A stretch of DNA of 64,000 bases from assembly GCF_015040615.1 (NCBI RefSeq), contig NZ_CP060402.1:2542001-2606000 (forward strand). Reading direction: 5' to 3'. Of this stretch, positions 35,838-42,227 are shown in pieces. Both the position numbers and the translations under genes were made by a program. Positions within the stretch are counted from its first letter, which is position 1; each line of letters begins with the position of its first letter. The stretch comes from Microbacterium sp. YJN-G. GTDB taxonomy: Bacteria; Actinomycetota; Actinomycetes; Actinomycetales; Microbacteriaceae. The notes below the pieces were generated by a model, which was not told where the DNA came from, did not search any database, and saw nothing but the letters and a program-made list of their open reading frames with translations.

Positions 35838-37385
35838 TCACACCTCCTGATCGGCCTTGATCGGCACGGCGATCGTCTCGGTGAGCTGCTGTTCGTAGCG
35901 CCGCTGACGCCGGCGCAGCCACAGTCCACCGAGCACCAGCAGGGCGAGTACGCCGTACGCCGCGGCGGCGAAGGGCTGCATGACCAGGGTCGACAGGTCG
36001 CCCTGGCTCAGCTGCAGCGCCTTGCGCAGGTACTCCTCCCCCATGGGGCCGAGGATCATCCCGACCACCAGCGGCGCGACCGGGTACCCGTACCGCCGCA
36101 TGAAGTAGCCGAGCGCCCCGATGATCACCAGGATGAGGATGTCGACCGTCGAGAAATTCAGCGCGTACGCCCCGAAGGCCGCGAACAGCAGGATGCCGGC
36201 GTACAGGTACGGTCGCGGGATCTGCAGCAGCTTCACCCACATCCCCACCAGCGGCAGGTTCAGCACGATGAGGATCACGTTGCCGAGGTACAGGCTCGCC
36301 ACCAGCGCCCAGACCAGCTGCGGCTGTGACTCGAACAGCAGCGGCCCTGGCTGCAGGCCGTACGCCTGGAACGCGACGAGGATGATCGCCGCCGTCGCCG
36401 TGGTCGGCAGCCCGAGCGTCAGCAGCGGGACGAGCACGCCCGCGGCCGCGGCGTTGTTGGCGGACTCGGGCCCGGCCACGCCCTCGATCGCCCCTCTCCC
36501 GAACTCGGCCTTGTGCTTGGAGAGCCGGCGCTCGGTCGCATAGGAGAGGAAGGTGGCGACATCCGCTCCCCCGGCGGGGATGGTGCCGATCGGGAAGCCG
36601 ATCGCCGTGCCGCGCAGCCAGGGCCGCCACGACCGCTTCCAGTCCTCCCGCGTCATCCAGCTGCGCCATCCGCGGGTGACGGGGATGACGTCGATCGAGC
36701 CGTGCCGCAGCTTCGCCGAGATGTACAGGGTCTCGCCGACGGCGAAGAGCCCGACCGCCACCAGCACGATGTCAACGCCGTCCGAGAGGGGCAGCAGGCC
36801 CAGTGTGTAGCGCTGCTGGCCCGACAGCAGGTCGGTGCCGACGAGGCCGAGGAACAGGCCCACGCCCAGCGACAGCATCCCGCGCGGCACCGAGCTGCCG
36901 ATCAGGGCGCCGACGGTGATGAACGCGATCATGATCAGGGCGAAGTAGTCCGCCGGCCCCAGCCCGACCGCGAACGACGCGAGCACCGGGGCGAGCAGCG
37001 TGAGCCCGACGGTGGCGAGTGTGCCGGCTACGAACGAGCCGATCGCGGCTGTCGCGAGCGCCGCGGCACCGCGACCGAGCCGCGCCATCCGGTTCCCCTC
37101 GATGGCCGTGACGATCGACGCCGACTCCCCTGGGGTGTTCAGCAGGATGCTGGTCGTCGACCCGCCGTACATGCCGCCGTAGTAGATGCCCGCGAAGGTG
37201 ATGAGCGCCGCGGTCGGGTCGAGCGTGTATGTCAGAGGCAGCAGCAGGGCGACCGTCATCGCGGGGCCGATGCCCGGCAGCACGCCCACGGCGGTGCCGA
37301 TCAGCACGCCGAGGAATGCGAAGACGAGGTACTGGGGCTGCATCGCCGTGGCGAGCCCCTCCATCAGCAGGGTCCAGCTGTCCAT
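35838..37385 (-). CDS. tctA: Tripartite tricarboxylate transporter, large membrane subunit TctA
   Basis: 515 residues from the ATG at 37385, which shares its first base with the tctB stop. About 11-12 hydrophobic segments. The repeated TctA signature [20 protein letters not shown] and [19 protein letters not shown], plus [21 protein letters not shown], identify it. TctA is the channel subunit that imports di- and tricarboxylates by a sodium- or proton-driven mechanism with TctB and the binding protein TctC. Confidence 0.95.
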
Positions 37386-37933
37386 CAGAACATCCCTCCC
37401 AGCCAGCCGAGCGCCGGACCCCAGGGCAGCGAGAGTCCGAGCAGCCCGCCGAAGACGACCTGCACGATCAGGCCGATGACGATGCCGACCACGAAACCGA
37501 GCCACCAGCGGCGGGCCCCGAGCGTCCAGGCGATGATGCCGAACAGCACAGCCGCTGCCGGCATCCAGCCGACGACGTCGATCAGCAGCAGGTGGGCGAT
37601 GAGGGCACCGGTGATCTTCGCCAGGGTGAACCAGTCGGTGCGGGCGGCCGGGTCGATGTCCTCGGCATCCTCGACCTCGGCGCGCTCTCCGCGCAGCACG
37701 CCGATGAGGACGGCGACGGCCGAGCCGAGCAGGACGATGGAGACGAAGATCGGGAAGACCGTCGGCCCGACGGTCGCACCGACGGGTACGCGGATGCCGA
37801 AGACGCCGGCGAGCGCGAAGACGCCGAGGGCGAGCATGAGCAGGGCGAAGACGAGCTCTCCGACGGGAACCCGCCGGGCGGACCGGGTGTTCACCTCGGT
37901 CCGCCCGTTCGCCCCGGTGACCGGGGCGCGCAT
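37385..37933 (-). CDS. tctB: Tripartite tricarboxylate transporter, small membrane subunit TctB
   Basis: 182 residues with four hydrophobic segments, as expected. [20 protein letters not shown] and [18 protein letters not shown] match the TctB family. It begins one bp after the tctC stop and overlaps tctA, so the three genes are translationally coupled. Confidence 0.92.
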
Positions 37934-37934
37934 G

Positions 37935-38948
37935 TCAGATCAGCCCGATGTTCTCGAGCGTGCCGGTCACGTCGGAGATGTTCTGCTCGATGAAGGCATC
38001 CAGCTCGTCGCCGGTGAGGAACGCGTCGGCCCAGCCCTTGGTCTCGAGCTCGCTCTGCCAGGCGTCCGAGTCGTGCATCTCGGCGACGATCCGCTCGAGC
38101 TCGGCGCGCTCGGCATCCGAGATGCCACCTGGGGCGATCACGCCGCGCCAGTTGGTCAGCACGACGTCGTAGCCCGCATCGGTGATGGTCGGCACGTCCG
38201 GCAGCTGGGCGGCCGGTTCCGCTCCCGAGACGGCGAGGGCGCGCATGGTGCCCTTCTCGATGTGCTGCTGGAACTCGCCGATGCCCGAGATGCCCGCGTC
38301 GACCTTGCCGCCGATGATCAGCGACACCGCCTCGCCACCGCCGGCGTTGGGCGTGTAGTTCAGCTTCTCGGTGATCTCGGCGCCCTCCAGGCCCGCCGCC
38401 TCGAGCAGCAGGCCGGCGAGGATGTGATCGGCGCCGCCGGCGGAGCCGCCGGTGACCGTGATCTCCTGGCCCTTGTCGACGATGTCCTCGACGAGCGCCT
38501 CCAGCGTGTCGTACTCCGAATCGGCGGGCACGACCACGACGAGCGCCTCGTCGGTCAGCCGTGCGATCGGGGTGGTGTCCTCCAGGCGCACCTGCGAGGC
38601 GTTCGTCTCGATCGCACCGACCATGACCAGCCCGTTGACCATGAGCGTCGCCGGGTCCTTCTCGTTGCGCAGCTGGGCGAGACCGATGGTCCCGCCTGCG
38701 CCGCCGACGTTGGTCACCGGCGCGGTCGTGACGATGCCGTCATCCGTGAGCACCTTGGCGATCGCGCGGCCGGTCTGATCCCAGCCGCCGCCGGGGTCTG
38801 CGGGGACGATGATCGAGACGTCCGTGAAGCTGGCCTTCTCCGCCGCGTCTCCGGCGGCGGGGGTGCCTGCAGTCTGCGACGAGCATCCGGTGACGGCGAG
38901 GGCTGCGGCGGCCGCGATCGCGATCAGTGCACTGCGTGTTCTCTTCAT
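37935..38948 (-). CDS. tctC: Tricarboxylate-binding lipoprotein TctC (Bug family)
   Basis: 337 residues. A lipoprotein signal ends in LAVTGCSS, then the Bug/TctC fold begins with SIIVPADPGGGWDQTGRAI, the family's first ligand loop, and continues with NVGGAGGTIGLAQL, the second. It captures citrate-like acids outside and hands them to TctAB. GAGGAG lies before the ATG. The divergent gene is the fused sensor-HTH regulator. Confidence 0.93.
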   Translation of the reverse strand: MKRTRSALIAIAAAAALAVTGCSSQTAGTPAAGDAAEKASFTDVSIIVPADPGGGWDQTGRAIAKVLTDDGIVTTAPVTNVGGAGGTIGLAQLRNEKDPATLMVNGLVMVGAIETNASQVRLEDTTPIARLTDEALVVVVPADSEYDTLEALVEDIVDKGQEITVTGGSAGGADHILAGLLLEAAGLEGAEITEKLNYTPNAGGGEAVSLIIGGKVDAGISGIGEFQQHIEKGTMRALAVSGAEPAAQLPDVPTITDAGYDVVLTNWRGVIAPGGISDAERAELERIVAEMHDSDAWQSELETKGWADAFLTGDELDAFIEQNISDVTGTLENIGLI

Positions 38949-39015
38949 TGCGCTCCTCCTTGAGCGGTGTCGGGATTGCTGACGAACGTAGGCCGACCGG
39001 TGGCCGCGATTCTGC

Positions 39016-39054
39016 TTCCGAAACCATTGGTCGGGGTTTCGGAACTATTGGTCG
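39016..39054. promoter_or_regulatory. Candidate operator of the tct genes: 10-bp palindrome and two direct repeats
   Basis: TTCCGAAACC (39016-39025) and GGTTTCGGAA (39035-39044) form a perfect palindrome with a 9-nt spacer. ATTGGTCG occurs at 39026-39033 and again at 39047-39054, exactly 21 bp apart, two helical turns. Both are in the 161-bp gap between tctC and the regulator. CitB/DcuR-type proteins bind direct repeats of this kind. Confidence 0.65.
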
Positions 39055-39109
39055 CGGATATCCCGTGTACCCGCTTCTGCGCACTCGCGCGGGCAGGGAC
39101 AATGGCTGA

Positions 39110-40393
39110 GTGGCCTCGATGATGAAGCGCGCGTCGACGATGACGCAGGGCGGCGGGATGCCGCGGGATGGCCGGATGCCGCTGCGGGTGCAGCTGATCC
39201 TGCTGCAGGCGCTGATCGTCGCGCTCGTCACCCTGATCGCCGGCGCGACGGCCGGCGTCATCCAGGAGCGCACCGTGCGCAACGCCTACGAGGACCGGAT
39301 GCTGGCGGTCGCCCAGTCGATCGCGACGATGCCGATCATCCTGAACGCGTTCGACGACGCCGATCCGGCGACGACGATCCAGCCCCTCGCGGAGGCCATC
39401 CGCGAAGCATCCGACCTGACGTACGTCGTGATCGCGGATGCCGACGGCATCCGCTTCTCGCATCCGAACCCCGCTCGCATCGGGCAGCGCGTGTCGACCG
39501 ACCCGTCGGTGCCCCTCTCGGGCGAGATCTACATGGGCACGCAGACCGGCACGCTCGGCACCACGTGGCGGGTGAAGGTCCCGATCTTCCAGGACGACGA
39601 GGTGATCGGCACGGCATCCGTCGGCATCCTCGAGTCGGAGGGCGTCGGCGAATTCGCCGGCAACCTGGCCTGGATCATCGGCGCCATGCTCGCCGCCGTG
39701 GTCTTCGGCGTGTTCGGAGCCGCGTGGGTGACGGCGGTGATCCGCCGCCGCATCCACCTGCTCGAGCCGCACGAGATCACCGCGCTGGTGCGCAATCAGG
39801 AGACCACCCTGCACGGGCTCAGCGAGGGTGTGATCACCGTCGGCGCCGACGGCATCATCACGCTGGTCAACGACGCCGCCGCGCGGCTGCTGGGAGCGGA
39901 TGCTCTGCAGCTGACCGGTGCTCGGGCCGCCGACGTGCTGGATGCCGAGCTGCTCACGGTGCTGCGCGACGGGGAGGATGCCGGACGCCCGGTGATCTCC
40001 GGCGACCACGTGCTGGTGGCGCGCAGTACCGGGGCACGGCTGGACGGTGAGACGGTGGAGGCGACGCTGCTGCTGCGCGACCACACCGAGCTGCACGACG
40101 TGGTGCGCCGCGTCGAGGCGGCCGACGCGATCATCGCGTTCCGCCAGCGTGCGGGCCTGCCGAAGGGGCTCAGCCCCGAGACGCTGGAGCGGGTGGCGAC
40201 GGCGCTCGCGGAGCATCCCGACGCCTCGGCCACCGAGATCGGCGAGGTGCTCTCGATCTCACGCGTGAGCGCGCGGCGCTACCTCGAGCACCTTGCCAGC
40301 ACCGGTCGGGCGATCCGCTCACTGGACTACAGCACGAAGGGGCGCCCCGGCACGCGCTACCGCACGAACGATCCGGTGAGTGCAGGGCACTGA
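39110..40393 (+). CDS. Membrane sensor fused to CitB-type DNA-binding domain, lacking kinase and receiver
   Basis: 427 residues. Residues 29-50 form TM1, 51-180 an extracytoplasmic sCache/CitA-type sensor (DLTYVVIADADGIRFSHPNP and TGTLGTTWRVKVPIF are typical of CitA/DcuS), 186-211 TM2 with the conserved VIRRRIHLLEPHEITAL exit, and 228-330 a PAS domain (LHGLSEGVITVGADGIITLV) ending LLLRDHTELHDV. In CitA-like kinases a HisKA/HATPase core follows; here residue 350 already reads LPKGLSPETLERV, the start of the C-terminal CitB/DcuR domain, with helix-turn-helix around TEIGEVLSISRVSARRYLEHL and the GRPGTRY end. GTG start, GACAAT 6 nt upstream. Divergent from tctCBA, its likely target. Confidence 0.85.
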   Translation: MASMMKRASTMTQGGGMPRDGRMPLRVQLILLQALIVALVTLIAGATAGVIQERTVRNAYEDRMLAVAQSIATMPIILNAFDDADPATTIQPLAEAIREASDLTYVVIADADGIRFSHPNPARIGQRVSTDPSVPLSGEIYMGTQTGTLGTTWRVKVPIFQDDEVIGTASVGILESEGVGEFAGNLAWIIGAMLAAVVFGVFGAAWVTAVIRRRIHLLEPHEITALVRNQETTLHGLSEGVITVGADGIITLVNDAAARLLGADALQLTGARAADVLDAELLTVLRDGEDAGRPVISGDHVLVARSTGARLDGETVEATLLLRDHTELHDVVRRVEAADAIIAFRQRAGLPKGLSPETLERVATALAEHPDASATEIGEVLSISRVSARRYLEHLASTGRAIRSLDYSTKGRPGTRYRTNDPVSAGH

Positions 40394-40527: not shown

Positions 40528-41202
40528 TTACTTGCCGGCCTCGGTGAAGCCTGCGGCCTCGGCAGCCTCCGCGGTGCGGAACCACACCTCGGCGACGGTC
40601 TGCTCGTACCACTGGCCATCCGGGCGGTGGAACTTCATCGAGTCCTTGTTGCCCTTGATGTCGAAGCCCTCGGGAGCCGAGCCGTCCTCGAGAGGAGCGG
40701 CCGAGTCCTCGCCGAACTCGCCGTCGACGAGCGCTGCGGGAGCGGCGGTCTCCTCGACGGGAGCCTCCTCGGCCTTCTCGGCCTTGGCGGGCTTCTCAGC
40801 CTTGGCGGCGGGCTTGGCGGCCGCCTTCTTCTTGGGCGTGACGGGCTCGAGGACGAGCTCGATCACGGCCATGGGGGCGTTGTCGCCCTTGCGGTTGCCG
40901 ACCTTCGTGATGCGGGTGTAGCCACCCTCACGCTCGGCGACGAGCGGCGCGATCTCGTTGAAGAGGATGTGCGCGGCGTCCTTGTTGGAACGCAGCACGG
41001 TCAGCGCGCGACGGCGGGCGTGCAGGTCGCCGCGCTTGCCGAGCGTGATGAGGCGCTCAGCCAGCGGACGAAGGCGCTTCGCCTTGGTCTCGGTCGTCTT
41101 GATCGACTTGTGAACGAAGAGCGCGGCGGCGAGGTTCGCGAGAAGAAGGCGCTCGTGTGCGGGGCCGCCTCCGAGGCGGGGACCCTTGGTGGGCTTGGGC
41201 AT
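40528..41202 (-). CDS. rplQ: 50S ribosomal protein L17 with long C-terminal extension
   Basis: 224 residues; E. coli L17 has 127. The ribosomal part is about the first 120 residues ([20 protein letters not shown] to [12 protein letters not shown]). A Lys/Ala/Glu-rich linker follows, and the last about 45 residues form a separate small motif ([20 protein letters not shown] then [18 protein letters not shown]), which resembles the short YHxP-type or sunset-like domain found at the ends of other actinobacterial proteins. Function of the tail is unknown. It is the last gene of the alpha-type cluster after rpoA. Confidence 0.95.
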
Positions 41203-41237
41203 AATCGTCTAACTCCTGGTCAGAAAGAGGTCGGGTT

Positions 41238-42227
41238 TCAGAAGGACTCGTCTTCGTTGCCGCTGTAGAAGTGGGCGCCGTCGAAACCGGGCACCGAATC
41301 CTTCAGCGACAGACCGAGCGAGACGAGCTTGTCGCGCACCTCGTCGACCGACTTCTGTCCGAAATTGCGGATGTTCATCAGCTGCGTCTCGGAAAGGGCG
41401 ACCAGCTCCGAAACGGTGTTGATGCCCTCGCGCTTGAGGCAGTTGTACGAGCGCACCGACAGATCGAGGTCCTCGATCGGCATGGAGAGCTCGCTGGAGA
41501 GCACAGCCTCGACCGGCGCGGGGCCGATCTCGATGCCCTCGGCCTCGACGTTCAGCTCGCGGGCGAGGCCGAACAGCTCGGTGAGGGTCTTGGCTGCGGA
41601 TGCGACGGCGTCGCGCGGGCTGATCGCCGACTTCGTCTCGACGTCGAGGACGAGCTTGTCGAAGTCGGTGCGCTCACCGGCACGGGTGGCGTCGACGCGG
41701 TAGCTGACCTTGAGCACCGGCGAGTAGATCGAGTCGACCGGGATCTGGCCGGCCTCGGCGTACTCGTTGCGGTTCTGCGCCGCCGACACGTAGCCGCGGC
41801 CGCGCTCGATGGTGAGCTCGAGCTCGAAGCGAGCCGTGTCGTTGAGCGTGGCGATGACCAGGTCGGGGTTGTGCACCTCGACACCCGCCGGAGCGGAGAT
41901 GTCGGCTGCGGTGACCTCGCCGGCGCCCGTCTTGCGCAGGTACGCGGTGATGGGCTCGTCGCGCTCGCTGGAGACGACCAGCTGCTTGATGTTGAGGATG
42001 ATCTCGGTGACGTCCTCCTTCACACCGGGGATCGTGCTGAACTCGTGCAGCACGCCGTCGATGCGAATGGTGGTGACCGAAGCGCCGGGGATCGACGAGA
42101 GCAGGCTGCGGCGCAGCGCGTTGCCGATCGTGTAGCCGAATCCGGGCTCGAGCGGCTCGATCACGAACCGGCTGCGGTTCTCGGAGATCTTTTCCTCGGT
42201 GAGAGTGGGACGCTGTGCGATGAGCAC
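41238..42227 (-). CDS. rpoA: DNA-directed RNA polymerase alpha subunit
   Basis: 329 residues. N-terminal dimerisation domain with [20 protein letters not shown], and C-terminal domain from about 245 ([20 protein letters not shown], with the DNA-binding Arg/Asn positions, then [15 protein letters not shown]). It nucleates core polymerase assembly and contacts UP elements and activators. The 139-bp gap before it, up to rpsK, is where rpsD stands in many actinobacteria; no rpsD is present. Confidence 0.97.

Follow-up and report, generated by a model that had tools for sequence, protein, structure and literature searches.

In Microbacterium sp. YJN-G, a single gene divergent from a tctCBA tricarboxylate transporter operon encodes a membrane protein that joins the sensory half of a CitA-type histidine kinase to the DNA-binding end of a CitB-type response regulator. 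We consider it likely, with a probability of about 0.74, that a CitA-CitB two-component pair has collapsed here into one membrane-bound, phosphorylation-free, citrate-responsive activator of tctCBA. Sequence comparison shows which parent each domain comes from, that the fusion arose once among the loci tested, that selection on it is purifying and that a two-site repeat is conserved beside it. The gene lies in a window, by which we mean the whole 64,000-nucleotide stretch analysed (NZ_CP060402.1, positions 2,542,001 to 2,606,000), of a genome of 3,624,144 bases with an estimated completeness of 100%.

Domain layout of the fused regulator

The regulator gene (39110..40393, forward strand, as are all its parts) is an uninterrupted frame of 427 codons and a stop. 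In order, it encodes TM1 (39185..39259; residues 26-50, Kyte-Doolittle segment 22-53, AF2 helix 25-72), an extracytoplasmic sCache_3 sensor of the CitA type (39266..39640; residues 53-177, Pfam sCache_3_2, 1.5e-30), TM2 (39659..39739; residues 184-210, Kyte-Doolittle segment 181-212, AF2 helix 175-216), a cytoplasmic PAS domain (39803..40093; residues 232-328, Pfam, 1.4e-6), a short junction linker at the site of the missing parental DHp, HATPase and receiver (40094..40159; residues 329-350) and, at the C-terminal end, a CitB/DcuR-type winged HTH (40160..40363; residues 351-418), the last assigned from the DcuR profile and from identity with CitB C-termini. Against NCBIfam, residues 23-337 align with DcuS/MalK kinases (2.9e-50), residues 345-420 with the C-terminal end of DcuR (6.4e-10) and residues 347-418 with the end of DpiA (4.9e-5), the DcuS/MalK and DcuR matches all falling under the curated whole-protein cut-offs. 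The Pfam HTH_64 match (residues 374-417, 6.5e-4) reaches 20.3 bits and is hence below the gathering score of 27; the family is visible at E ≤ 0.01 in 22 of 27 aligned members, including the window protein. No DHp, HATPase or REC family was found by Pfam at E ≤ 1 in the 427-aa protein. The layout read from the letters in the initial annotation, one frame holding TM1, sensor, TM2, PAS and HTH and lacking the kinase helix, HATPase and REC, was therefore confirmed by the frame itself, the Pfam and NCBIfam profiles and the hydrophobic segments.

Measured against its putative parents, the protein has the sCache_3 domain between two transmembrane segments and the PAS after TM2 that mark a CitA/DcuS kinase, and lacks the kinase core (phospho-His DHp helix and HATPase; Pfam, E ≤ 1); it likewise has the C-terminal DpiA/DcuR-type HTH of a CitB/DcuR regulator and lacks the phospho-Asp receiver. 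Since the defining kinase and receiver are missing, it is neither a CitA nor a CitB, though built of both, and its transmembrane segments and DNA-binding domain in the same protein are those of a transmembrane one-component regulator. Structure comparison returned assorted winged HTHs with no CitB/DcuR entry among the 50 matches listed, nor did solved structures yield such an entry when searched with the HTH sequence, so that the HTH assignment rests on sequence homology. The linker was modelled by AF2 as a helix (335-348) at low confidence (pLDDT 52-64), in a domain arrangement that is itself unreliable (pTM 0.34).

The citrate residues of Klebsiella CitA are given as R66, H69, R107 and K109 in the accessible part of PMC3353115. 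These align with R115, H118, R154 and K156 of the fusion, which are invariant in 27 sequences; the four residues expected of a citrate-type, as opposed to a C4-dicarboxylate-type, sensor are thus present by alignment.

Genome-wide, sCache_3_2 and HTH_64 gave one match each at E ≤ 0.001, both being the window gene. The earlier observation that no CitA or CitB gene is nearby can accordingly be extended to the whole genome at this threshold and for these two families, with the qualification that a CitB matching even less well could escape, as the HTH_64 match of the window gene is itself weak in this search (2.9e-4). Relatives are annotated as 'PAS domain-containing protein' or 'CitB family sensor kinase', names that overlook the DNA-binding end and the missing kinase.

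Parental citA-citB pairs, junction and spread of the fusion

The tctCBA-regulator cluster was found with separate full-length citA and citB genes in related genera and in other Microbacterium genomes. In 34 closely examined citAB loci (L005-L020, L022-L026, L061-L073), identity to the respective ends of the fusion is 46-64% for the sensor and 48-65% for the HTH; kinase core, receiver and HTH were detected in 34/34 and a divergent tctC in 32/34. With the same queries, a kinase core or receiver was found at 0/30 fusion loci, and tctC lay within the examined stretch at all 30 intact ones. The best matches outside the genus (L005-L020 and L022-L031, from 299 family genomes) stop at residues 337-343; their frames are 534-969 aa long, versus 427 for the fusion, which aligns with CitA to residue ~341 and with CitB from ~345. 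A set of 77 loci from named records divides in the same manner: 46 have a kinase core, together with a receiver (46/46), tctC (45) and HTH (45), and 31, including one truncated copy (L147), have neither kinase core nor receiver, 30 of them with tctC. The kinase-type records come from Pseudolysinimonas, Mycetocola, Rathayibacter, Okibacterium, Nocardioides, Jiangella, Cellulosimicrobium, Arthrobacter, Promicromonospora and some Microbacterium; the fusion-type records are all from Microbacterium except one titled Actinomycetales bacterium SN12.

At the junction, parental CitA of one pair locus (L006) reads RDHTELHETLRRVDGAQSLTDGLRAQAHEF and its CitB reads IDEVMASRGTGALPKGLS; the fusion reads RDHTELHDVVRRVEAADAIIAFRQRAGLPKGLS. 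Pattern matching located both CitA RAQ and CitB LPKG at 19 of 35 pair loci, and the distance between the two there is 1028-1223 nt. Along its length, the linker is near-invariant in 30 fusions. Among 16 close fusion pairs, pN/pS was 0.133 for the sensor, 0.176 for the PAS, 0.032 for residues 329-350 and 0.127 for the HTH, which makes the junction the most constrained part of the protein (pN/pS 0.03); these are uncorrected Nei-Gojobori-style counts over pairs that share branches and serve as a guide rather than a test. All 30 fusion frames that were checked are uninterrupted and under purifying selection. A unique, decayed deletion, named at the outset as an outcome that would overturn the proposal, was not what the relatives displayed, as 54 of 366 genomes carry the fusion at full length.

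Within the genus Microbacterium, 115 of 366 genomes gave a match at E ≤ 1e-40. Counted by eye, these comprise 54 full-length fusions (frames checked for 30), 3 broken ones, 42 kinase-type matches and 16 weaker matches. Each genome has one match, save for two broken genes seen as two pieces each; fusion and related kinase therefore do not co-occur at 1e-40, and the 251 genomes with no match at this threshold indicate that the system is dispensable in the genus.

In a midpoint-rooted sensor tree of 70 sequences (30 fusions, 35 pairs and 5 long-branch outgroup rows), the fusions form one clade among pair sensors (100/100), whose sister group consists of two pairs from other genera (100/95); the outgroup rows fall among the pairs. 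Quick HTH and TctC trees also returned a single fusion group (SH-aLRT 87 and 99, respectively, the HTH tree having too few columns for much resolution), and the nearest pairs differ between the sensor, HTH and TctC trees. A single change from pair to fusion would be the parsimonious direction. The proposal that a two-component pair had collapsed is thus borne out by separate citA and citB genes at the same cluster, sought there as the ancestral arrangement, and by a fusion clade lying among kinases. The fusion cluster adjoins rplQ-rpoA in the window (40528-42227) and in most fusion loci. In the named set, rplQ was in the examined stretch at 25/31 loci without the kinase core and at 0/46 with it; because no pair cluster was seen beside rplQ-rpoA, the fusion cluster was probably relocated as well as collapsed.

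Outside the genus, no whole-protein match appeared among the matches listed from overlapping draws of 299 family, 396 order and 396 phylum genomes. Some of the order and phylum matches listed reach residues 357-395 in frames of at least 549 aa, and from this frame length they are taken to be kinases or other long proteins. In the phylum draw, several genomes of one genus have a CitA-like sensor-PAS in ~900-aa frames, which is long for CitA kinases. A second independent fusion was sought with residues 318-422 (candidates of ~235-747 aa); of the best 120 of 161 matches, those whose names give an organism are all Microbacterium except for P0058. This record, labelled Streptomyces sp. AC495_CC817, is a 75% identical fusion protein that may be mislabelled or transferred.

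CitA-type kinases adjoining tctCBA were also seen at L138, L140-L146 and L149-L154 (Promicromonospora, Myceligenerans) and at L155-L159, with a sensor match that stops at about residue 217-233. In those that were translated (L138, L140, L143, L144, L155, L157 and L159), TM2 runs nearly straight into the DHp helix with no PAS between them, so the PAS retained by the fusion is dispensable in these kinases. Promicromonospora and Myceligenerans matches ending at residues 230-233 had been considered as a possible shorter fusion; this was rejected, L138, L140, L143 and L144 being kinases that lack the PAS and the others showing a kinase core.

The divergent tctCBA operon and its operator-like repeat

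The presumed target operon lies on the reverse strand and consists of tctC, encoding the tripartite tricarboxylate transporter binding protein (37935..38948; PF03401, 9.8e-23), tctB (37385..37933; PF07331, 4.6e-18) and tctA (35838..37385; PF01970, 6e-153), the last with a start picked by eye, its ATG at 37385 overlapping the end of tctB. In two other Microbacterium genomes (L075 and L076), neither tctC nor tctB was found, tctA is truncated, and so is the fusion, of which the HTH end remains; regulator and transporter seem to decay together there.

The pattern TTNNGNAANNATTGGTC has two matches in the 3.62-Mb genome, both of them direct repeats in the tctC-regulator intergenic region, and the reversed control pattern has none. 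Operator-like site 1, TTCCGAAACCATTGGTC (39016..39032, forward strand), is 25 nt from a predicted tctC -10 box, TACGTT (38985..38990, reverse strand); site 2, TTTCGGAACTATTGGTC (39037..39053, forward strand), is 21 bp from site 1 and 44 nt from a predicted regulator -10 box, GACAAT (39098..39103, forward strand). Conserved across fusion loci, this box ends 7 nt upstream of the GTG at 39110 and would fit a leaderless start, so this GTG may be the true start of a gene that in many relatives is annotated to begin near residue 20.

The repeat was scored at 31 fusion loci (30 intact and one frameshifted) with a pattern that permits T for one G. Two copies occur in 29/31, spaced by 21 bp in 23 and by 20 bp in 6; in L035, one copy has one mismatch (11/12), and L038 is the one locus of these 31 with a single copy. 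On the tctC side, all 31 loci have a NANNNT box at a distance of 25 nt from the first site (TANNNT in 15, CANNNT in 16), and the regulator-side box keeps its 44 nt at 30 of 31, L038 deviating. In the named set, which overlaps the first, two copies were present at 29/30 fusion loci and one copy at one, and at one of the 30 (L096) the tctC box does not keep the 25-nt distance.

Among the pair loci, a stricter pattern caught the motif at 10/32; once the pattern was widened, a similar motif was found at 20/32 and was absent from 12/32. Only two of the 20 motif-bearing pair loci have an upstream second copy matching at least 9/12. In seven of the 20, a TANNNT box stands in the same register when measured from the upstream position, and by arithmetic such a box lies 25 nt from the site at the single-site pair loci L005 and L007-L012. 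Among named pair loci, again an overlapping set, the motif was absent in 35/46 and in two copies at none, and 5 of the 11 one-copy loci (L109, L110, L112, L135 and L137) have TANNNT 25 nt from the single site. Because the repeat and the 25-nt register of the box recur at pair loci, the DNA target and its distance to the promoter seem to have survived when kinase and receiver were lost, with the second site strong in the fusion clade; the repeat is a candidate operator for this branch of CitB.

At the more distant pair loci L022-L026, other tandem repeats occupy the same place in TTTCGGTC steps. The ATTGGTC repeat is likewise absent from L014-L017, L020 and L022-L026, where tandem repeats such as TTTCGGTCGTTTCGGTC or CATTGTGGTCATTGTGGTC stand instead; despite these other repeats, the HTH letters SRVSARRYLE are identical or almost identical at these loci.

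According to the accessible part of PMC3353115, CitAB of C. glutamicum is needed for citrate-inducible expression of tctCBA and CitB binds the tctCBA promoter, its exact motif not being identified there; at the fusion locus, a candidate is visible. Control of the divergent tctCBA by the fused protein, suggested in the initial annotation, has gained in plausibility from a genome-unique, rigidly spaced operator-like repeat that has counterparts at 20 of 32 citAB loci, and is otherwise a prediction.

Proposed mechanism, alternatives and known systems

We propose that a deletion of about 1.0-1.1 kb struck an ancestral citA-citB pair that lay divergent from tctCBA. It would have removed everything from the first residues of the CitA dimerisation helix up to and including the CitB receiver, and so joined the CitA sensor-TM-PAS in frame to the CitB winged HTH. 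Citrate would bind and close the sensor, TM2 would move, and the PAS would pass the change on to the linker. Both HTHs of a dimer held together by the sensors would thereby be positioned on the tandem direct repeats, provided that a domain this close to the membrane can reach the two sites. A receiver dimerises on phosphorylation; in its place, dimerisation would be supplied by the sensor and PAS, and tctCBA, perhaps along with the regulator gene, would be activated with no phosphotransfer. Counted from the predicted tctC start, the sites cover about -38 to -54 (site 1) and -59 to -75 (site 2), positions that make this an activator's layout. Weighing against the proposal are the HTH_64 score under its gathering value, the pair loci that lack the motif, the irregular fusion loci L038 and L096, the dispensability of the system in the genus, the low-confidence model and the disagreement between trees over the nearest pairs. 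The stronger form of the proposal is that one deletion wired the transmembrane signal of a sensor kinase directly and functionally to a DNA-binding domain, the linker newly becoming the most constrained part; two good sites 20-21 bp apart, versus one good and sometimes a degenerate second at citAB loci, would then look as if they compensated for the lost phosphorylation-driven dimerisation. We hold this tentatively, at slightly less than even odds.

It is unlikely, in our estimate, that the collapsed regulator is instead a repressor or constitutive binder that citrate would release. A collapsed regulator has been described as a repressor, namely Rsp, for pilA (PMC10269533, accessible part), and sites between both divergent promoters would also suit autorepression; however, both sites would be upstream of the expected tctC -35 and off the core promoter, and CitAB of C. 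glutamicum is an activator of tctCBA in the available text of PMC3353115. Furthermore, the tctC box is CANNNT, not TANNNT, in 16/31 fusion loci, a hint that the promoter is weak and relies on assistance. Some membrane-bound regulators are set free by proteolysis, and such release would solve the problem of membrane tethering; yet a linker that is near-invariant throughout, and is modelled with low confidence as a helix, appears more like a signalling helix than a cleavage region, and we regard an HTH that acts only once regulated proteolysis has freed it as distinctly improbable.

The 3 of 57 genus loci at which the fusion is broken are what a non-functional relic of a two-component system would leave behind, but the 54 full-length matches, a pN/pS of 0.03-0.18 by region, the near-invariant linker and the kept repeat geometry all speak against a relic, and the selection data across relatives make this very improbable. 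As for an assembly or sequencing artefact that would have lost a kinase core from between codons 330 and 350, no support for it was found; the same junction in 30 loci of separate genomes, together with fusion-type loci in named assemblies of several species, refutes it for practical purposes.

The preferred reading, a collapsed CitA-CitB pair acting as an activator, has several points of comparison. DcuS/DcuR and DpiB/DpiA have a kinase and a receiver, unlike the fusion. Their sensor-PAS and HTH parts are homologous to its own by NCBIfam profile, and the DcuS sensor has F where the fusion and CitA have K. C. glutamicum CitA/CitB resembles the fusion in the kind of sensor, the citrate residues, the HTH family and the kind of target operon (PMC3353115, accessible part); it consists of two proteins with kinase core and receiver, whereas the fusion is one protein with neither.

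The closest parallel is Rsp of Neisseria gonorrhoeae, in which, as far as the available text describes it, the PilS/Nps receptor is fused to the PilR/Npa DNA-binding end (PMC10269533, PMC6528607). Like the Microbacterium protein, it is a collapsed pair with a membrane receptor and a C-terminal DNA-binding domain, although from different protein families. It is called a 'remnant' in the title of the first paper on it and is said not to act in pilE transcription, though it is said to repress pilA (PMC6528607, PMC10269533, accessible parts); the Microbacterium protein differs in being maintained by purifying selection in several species, together with its DNA repeat. The transmembrane transcription regulators (TTRs) are also one-component proteins with membrane segment(s) and a DNA-binding domain, for which an origin from two-component systems is raised as a possibility in the accessible part of PMC10269533; in the fusion, with its two transmembrane segments and C-terminal HTH, the ancestral pair, the junction and the retained repeat are directly comparable. 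Membrane one-component regulators, and the fusion of a kinase receptor to a DNA-binding end as in Rsp, are therefore already a known kind going by these partial sources, and the suggestion that the architecture was undescribed holds only for the CitA-CitB fusion itself, of which no description was found in the open-licence literature searched (most subscription papers lie outside it).

With respect to evolution, the Microbacterium fusion makes a step visible through relatives of both parents, the junction, and the retained repeat and promoter spacing, in dozens of genomes. In the common view, one-component regulators came first and two-component systems arose from them; the step seen here is the reverse. 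The fusion also opens to test the question of whether the transmembrane signal of a kinase sensor can drive a DNA-binding domain directly. If the proposed reading is true, it would be a clean natural case of two-component to one-component evolution, opposite to the direction usually assumed.
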